14,018 nt of DNA, taken from positions 21,850 through 35,867 of the forward strand of contig MGQK01000089.1 of assembly GCA_001797815.1 (NCBI GenBank), given 5' to 3'. Shown here piece after piece: positions 13,059 to 14,018 of this stretch. The notes beneath the pieces are model-generated. The model had not been told where the DNA came from. It made no database searches and saw only the letters and a program-made list of their open reading frames with translations. Each line of letters opens with the position of its first letter. Position 1 is the first letter of the stretch. The translations under genes and the position numbers were made by a program. This DNA is from Deltaproteobacteria bacterium RBG_13_61_14 (GTDB lineage Bacteria > RBG-13-61-14).

Positions 13059-14018
13059 ATGAAGTTAGACGATATCCGAAAAAAATTTTTAGACTACTTC
13101 GAAGCCCACGGTCATCGCGTGGTGCCGAGTTCCTCGCTGGTTCCCCAGAACGATCCCACCCTCCTCTTCACCAACGCCGGCATGAACCAGTTCAAGGACA
13201 TGTTCCTGGGCCAGGAAAAGCGCGACTACGCGCGCGCCACCTCCTCCCAAAAATGCTTCCGCGCCTCGGGCAAGCACAACGACCTGGAAAACGTGGGCCG
13301 CACCGCCCGCCACCACACCTTCTTCGAGATGCTCGGCAACTTCAGCTTCGGCGACTACTTCAAGCAGGAAGCCATCGGCTTTGCCTGGGAGCTGCTCACT
13401 TCTGAATACGGCCTCCCGAAACAGCGGCTCTGGGTCACCGTCTTCGAACACGATGACGAGGCGGAAAAGGTCTGGCGCGAGGTCACCGACGTGGACACCG
13501 CCCGCATCGTGCGCATGGGCGAGAAGGACAACTTCTGGGCCATGGGGGAGGTCGGCCCCTGCGGTCCCTGCTCCGAGATCATCATGGACCAGGGCCCGGG
13601 CGTGGGCTGCGGCCGAGAAACCTGCGACATCCACTGCGATTGCGGCCGCTTCCTGGAGCTGTGGAACCTGGTCTTCATGCAGTTCAACCGCGACGCCGAA
13701 GGCAAAATGACCCCCCTGCCCCACCCCTCGATTGACACCGGCATGGGCCTCGAGCGCATCACCGCGGTGCTCCAGGGCGTGCACTCCAACTACGACACCG
13801 ACCTGTTCCGCTCCATCATCCATCGCATCGAAGAACTTTCAGGTAAAAAATATGGCGAGTCAAAGACTTTAGGGGCGCGGGTGCCCTCACCCGCGCGATC
13901 CACGCAAACCGCGCAACAACAAAACGTGTCCATGCGCATCATCGCCGAGCACTCCCGGGCCATGGCCTTCCTCATCGCCGACGGCGTGCTCCCGGCCAAC
14001 GAAGGCCGCGGCTACGTG
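13059..14018 (+). CDS. alaS: Alanyl-tRNA synthetase, 5' part (runs off the window)
   Basis: The first 320 codons of alanyl-tRNA synthetase, which charges tRNA-Ala; no stop before the window edge. The catalytic core is unmistakable: [74 protein letters not shown] and [15 protein letters not shown] prefer the ATG at 13059 because AAGAG lies six bases before it; the ATG at 13053 abuts that site. Between KKYGE and VSMRIIAEH the protein carries about 22 residues where family members have about five. This insert (from S268 to about N289) is encoded by an in-frame palindromic repeat and reads low-complexity (R, P, S, T, Q). Because the rest is intact and in frame, the gene is probably functional. 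Confidence 0.95.
13875..13896. repeat. Palindromic repeat inserted in frame within alaS
   Basis: Nine perfect pairs GCGCGGGTG (13875-13883) with CACCCGCGC (13888-13896) around CCCT, preceded by TTAGGG. It lies in the unusual alaS segment (13860-13920) and adds about 51 bases without a stop or frameshift. The opening resembles the palindrome at 13013-13044. Confidence 0.7.

Follow-up and report, generated by a model that had tools for sequence, protein, structure and literature searches.

A Palindromic Repeat of the REP Type Read in Frame within the Alanyl-tRNA Synthetase Gene of a Deltaproteobacterium

The alanyl-tRNA synthetase gene (alaS) of the uncultured Deltaproteobacteria bacterium RBG_13_61_14 (assembly GCA_001797815.1) carries within its reading frame a short hairpin-forming repeat, named here REP1. 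The gene was analysed in a stretch of 14,018 nucleotides (contig MGQK01000089.1, positions 21,850 to 35,867 of the forward strand), referred to below as the window. REP1 is a family of the repetitive extragenic palindrome (REP) type. The insert in the synthetase (AlaRS) is very probably a REP1 copy that was spread by an HUH transposase of the REP-associated tyrosine transposase (RAYT) type, landed in a loop of the enzyme and is translated as a tolerated disordered stretch. It provides a clear case of a non-coding mobile hairpin turned into part of an essential protein, and a single genome displays the transposases likely to mobilise it together with copies between genes and about twelve apparently translated ones.

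REP1 in the alaS Reading Frame

alaS is the last gene of the window (13053..14018, + strand), which contains its N-terminal 322 codons (Pfam tRNA-synt_2c, E=2e-139) while the rest of the gene lies outside. The gene is full-length and not a relic, since it is the sole match in its own genome (copy number 1), its stop-to-stop frame of 980 codons is open across the hairpin, and the full product scores 952.7 bits against TIGR00344 (cut-off 457) over model positions 1-847 of 847. REP1 is found at 13865-13896 on the + strand, between the segments coding for KKYGE and VSMRII. It is composed of GAC, a head TTTAGGG (13868-13874), a first arm (13875-13883), a loop (13884-13887) and a second arm (13888-13896), and reads GACTTTAGGG-GCGCGGGTG-CCCT-CACCCGCGC. 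Folded as single-stranded DNA it forms a 9-bp stem with a 4-nt loop (-13.4 kcal/mol; z=-4.7), and none of 200 shuffled sequences was as stable. Translation of alaS would proceed in frame through the codons TTA GGG GCG CGG GTG CCC TCA CCC GCG, none of which is a stop.

The original prediction, which reported a 9-bp hairpin repeat in alaS with the frame kept, holds on these points. It had the location right, but its span of 13857-13922 starts slightly early and ends slightly late: the stretch shared with another copy is 13865-13917. This extended mobile unit (+ strand) is composed of REP1 and a tail GATCCACGCAAACCGCGCAAC, corresponds to AlaRS residues 271-289 and is 94% identical across 53 bp to a second copy at C51:6303-6355. 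An Rfam search of the window gave no match.

Comparison with relatives defines the size of the insertion. Between fixed anchors the AlaRS loop has 28 amino acids, whereas 11 is the most frequent length in relatives (63 of the 109 aligned around the site) and none of the 109 has 28. The net gain of the loop is thus 17 amino acids, or 51 nt. This agrees with the clean insertion of about 51 bases that had been foreseen, and an insert of equal length is found in none of the 109 relatives. In-silico excision of 13864-13914 (+ strand; 51 nt, placement uncertain by a few bases) leaves a loop of normal length, close to the GKRYGESEQFDVSMRVI of a relative. The loop length does vary: it is of 16-20 amino acids in three relatives and of 37 in two Acidobacteriota. 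The loop of a genome from the same order (G002) is also longer (17 amino acids), and no strong palindrome was found in its loop DNA.

An AlphaFold2 model of AlaRS was built with 49 relatives (mean pLDDT 83.3, pTM 0.85) and compares well with the E. coli enzyme (3hxu; TM 0.86). The REP encodes residues 271-282, and the pLDDT is below 50 from residue 272 to 285; this low-confidence segment is predicted to connect helix 250-263 to helix 283-309. Sequence alignment assigns only few residues of 3hxu to the insert position. The most fitting view of the insert is that of a disordered loop bordering the catalytic domain.

The REP1 Family across the Genome

The host genome is a draft of 4.74 Mb in 132 contigs. 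A search of it with the local alaS sequence gave 45 matches, and the core TTTAGGGGCGCGGSTGMC is found 85 times (up to 2 mismatches) against 3 times for the reversed control. The palindrome had been proposed to be a mobile element acting as a protein-coding insert in an essential enzyme, and the dispersed family of about 85 copies, with its in-frame member in alaS, supports this proposal. The same core gives 0-2 matches in each of 20 other genomes, two of which belong to the same order. Since these counts are overall no higher than their controls, the REP1 expansion is, within the set of genomes searched, limited to this lineage. The copies have in common the sequence GAC-TTT[AC]GGG, a stem of 9 bp and the loop [AC]CC[TC], and a tail AACC is frequent; the 32 nt found in alaS match the family consensus exactly. 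Stem changes are compensatory, as illustrated by pair 6, which is GC in 40, CG in 13 and AT in 2 of 55 hairpins, a set partly chosen for complementarity that includes a few hairpins of other types. The 32-nt length of the unit, its stable fold and its dispersal agree with the definition of REPs as short (20-40 bp) dispersed imperfect palindromes.

Many REP1 copies have their loop broken by a different palindrome, GTTCGGCTGAGCTCACGGCCGAA, and in some cases yet another is nested there (L158, L140, L181, L193, L184, L204 and others), and several of these composite copies sit in open frames. The 5' half of REP1 is often found in tandem, for example as 18-nt units of CTGACTTTAGGGGCGCGG (L134, L141, L143, L144, L154, L128, L132). 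The sequence TGAC is present both at the start of the element and in its loop, and slippage between them could be the cause of these tandem halves.

RAYT Transposases Linked to REP1

Nineteen Y1_Tnp matches are found in the genome. Two of these genes, whose products are 58% identical, code for RAYTs according to NCBIfam REP_Tyr_transpos (NF047646, cut-off 80): one on contig C130 (L128:2330-3067, - strand; score 88.0), with the motifs PDHVHML and WQDEYYDRSVR, and one on C63 (L195:1428-2030, + strand; score 86.3). The C130 gene has REP1 copies on both sides in inverted orientation and the C63 gene is flanked by inverted close variants of REP1, so that both show the arrangement of a cognate RAYT between inverted copies. 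REPs are also found inside the two genes: three tandem copies (SEPDFRGAGAPR...) are in frame in the C130 RAYT, and an inverted pair is in frame at the matching internal place of the C63 RAYT, in each case between the HUH and Tyr motifs. The paralogue L178 and the translation of L129 have neither an internal REP insert nor REP1 alongside. The flanking and internal copies tie REP1 to RAYTs, and it appears to belong with the REPs rather than with the Rickettsia palindromic elements (RPEs), because two RAYTs are flanked by inverted copies. These RAYTs probably move REP1. Most other Y1_Tnp genes, largely of ~320 amino acids, were not taken as cognate since no REP1 is nearby. An apparent copy within a Y1_Tnp gene, L175 (TTTGGGGGCGCGGGAGAC), was discarded because native coding sequence matches there by chance. 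The about a dozen ~320-amino-acid Y1_Tnp proteins without adjacent REP1 form a large family for one genome.

REP1 Copies in Frame in Other Genes

Frames and contexts were read from stretches fetched around the copies. Codon log-odds alone were too noisy to assess coding potential in this GC-rich genome; host genes were accepted only if they had a protein family, and the counts are lower bounds. REP1 is in frame in at least eleven genes besides alaS: thymidylate kinase tmk (inside PF02223), the KDO transferase gene waaA (inside PF04413), priA (PriA), the genes of an Eco57I-type methylase, YfhO, an O-antigen ligase, a TonB-like protein, a TPR protein and a periplasmic binding protein, and the two RAYTs. 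In this genome the in-frame copy in alaS is therefore no rare single event, which refines the original prediction. A gene for a PMT_2-like protein (L158) is an extra, weakly matched case. Relative to related proteins, ~5 residues are added at the copy in tmk, ~10 in waaA and roughly 20 in priA; the C130 RAYT is also longer at its copy when measured against its own paralogue.

Three frames of REP1 are used. The frame coding for LGARVPSPA is found in alaS, tmk, waaA and most linkers, the FRGAGALTR frame in the RAYT, methylase and YfhO genes, and a reverse-strand frame in priA; the remaining forward frame has a TAG codon. The commonest frame, made of Pro, Ala and Ser, probably suits linkers and loops. 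A Pro/Ala-rich linker in L147 (G000:C107:8200-8380) contains three REP-derived peptides (ARVPSPA/ARVPPPA) and lies beside an N run of the assembly.

Comparison with Known Systems

In-frame REPs, an infrequent but documented behaviour of these elements, have been described by Di Nocera and colleagues within genes of several species. tRNA synthetases of X. oryzae, E. litoralis and S. alaskensis are among their cases, which they compared with Rickettsia RPEs (PMC3733652). REPs inside RAYT genes have also been published (PMC6006769). With both situations known, it is the foot and the host that differ here. REP1 resembles REP/RAYT systems (PMC2817692, PMC3733652) by its short hairpin, one side of which bears a constant head, its tens of dispersed copies, the two RAYT genes with inverted flanking copies and the presence of some copies in frame within genes, those for DNA repair and tRNA synthetases among them. 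It differs from them by its foot (TT[AC]G where they have GT[AG]G), by a host lineage for which the collections searched hold no near relative and by the extra tail of the alaS copy. REP1 is a REP-type family tied to RAYTs but no canonical GTAG REP. Further foot variants are found near the C63 RAYT, and some systems are reported to tolerate mutations in the foot (PMC8266576).

The placement of in-frame REPs in the transposase, between its HuH and Y motifs, is as reported for TnpA-REP subclass 2.4 (PMC6006769). The motifs DHVH, WQ and YLMHNP/YLLNNP were compared by eye with those tabulated for this subclass in the same study (NH[IFV]H, WQ, YIxNNP): the HUH motif differs, DHVH fitting the [ND]HVH of subclass 2.7. 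The likeness to RPEs put forward in the original prediction stands for the mode of action, a palindromic repeat being in frame in many unrelated proteins, but does not appear to extend to the identity of the element, which is short (32-53 nt) and linked to RAYT genes. Its host and the RAYT linkage argue for an origin separate from RPEs.

The Same AlaRS Loop in Acidobacteriota

The 37-residue loops of the two Acidobacteriota relatives are found at the position of the REP1 insert. In one of them, the Acidobacteriales bin GZL_HYHR_2_bin.60 (JAICSO010000001.1; L090), the loop insert is built from two palindromes that are dispersed in the same genome. The first, GCGTAGGGACAGCCGCC(C)TCGGCTGTCC, has a GTAG foot and about ten copies; the second, GGACGGGCGAGGGCGCCCGTCGCTCC, has about six. 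The hairpin of this insert has a z of -3.4. The other 37-residue loop (L094) was dropped as a parallel, its insert being weakly repeated and its fold (z=-1.9) not clearly exceptional. Unrelated REP families have thus been accepted independently at the same AlaRS loop in different lineages. The simplest view is that this loop is a permissive site, and the alaS insert and its parallel together form a natural test of where in a protein short disordered inserts can be accommodated. It seems quite unlikely that the loop is instead a site of recurrent REP landing and retention in unrelated lineages, with the inserts kept for an effect of the hairpin or peptide at this junction on co-translational folding or alaS expression.

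Origin and Tolerance of the Insert

A RAYT-type HUH transposase would spread REP1 in this genome, and one copy would have landed in the loop that leads from the last catalytic-domain helix of AlaRS to the next helix. The insert is expected to be translated, as a Pro/Ala-rich disordered stretch, because its net length is a multiple of three and its frame has no stop. The enzyme would tolerate it, and its presence may be selectively near-neutral. Four points weigh against this account: the tail that follows the hairpin in alaS is found at full length in just one further copy; the REP1 foot is TTAG, with a minority of TTCG, and not the canonical GT[AG]G; the action of the RAYTs on REP1 is presumed; and the assembly is a draft in which Ns are seen at some of the REP clusters.

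The insert might have been kept for a function, its mRNA hairpin or Pro-rich peptide slowing translation, regulating alaS or altering the enzyme. Its location at the passage from the catalytic part to the helical segment that follows, and the acceptance of different REPs at the same site in the Acidobacteriales genome, would suit such a role. However, the loop is poorly conserved and of variable length, the peptide is predicted to be disordered, and the presence of the REP in unrelated proteins in three frames fits tolerance better than selection, which makes a retained function quite improbable. Misassembly of a repeat into alaS deserves consideration in a draft of 132 contigs, where repeats are risky and Ns are found beside one REP cluster. 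Yet the two halves of the single-copy alaS flank the insert correctly ordered and in frame, the net gain is 51 nt, the same pattern is seen in many genes, and comparable REP insertions have been published, so that an artefact is most unlikely. An ordinary lineage-specific loop extension with coincidental likeness to a repeat, to which the variable loop length of relatives (16-20 and 37 amino acids) could point, deserves almost no credence and is refuted by the genome-wide copies, as the 32 nt are the consensus of an 85-copy family of its own genome that is almost missing from relatives, and one long loop of Acidobacteriota is likewise built of the dispersed palindromes of its genome.

A Second Palindrome Upstream of alaS

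An intergenic REP of another type, REP2 (GGGTAGGGGCACGGCATGCCGTGCCCCTACCC; no strand assigned), is found at 13013..13044, just upstream of alaS. It has a double foot (GTAG...CTAC) and a fold of -19.1 kcal/mol as DNA (z=-7.1). No RAYT cognate to REP2 was found near the RAYTs examined. The genome has 51 forward and 50 reverse matches to REP2 against 0 for the control, that is about 50 copies. The double-foot type has been described (PMC6006769), and its presence in this genome is a further likeness to the report on subclass 2.4.
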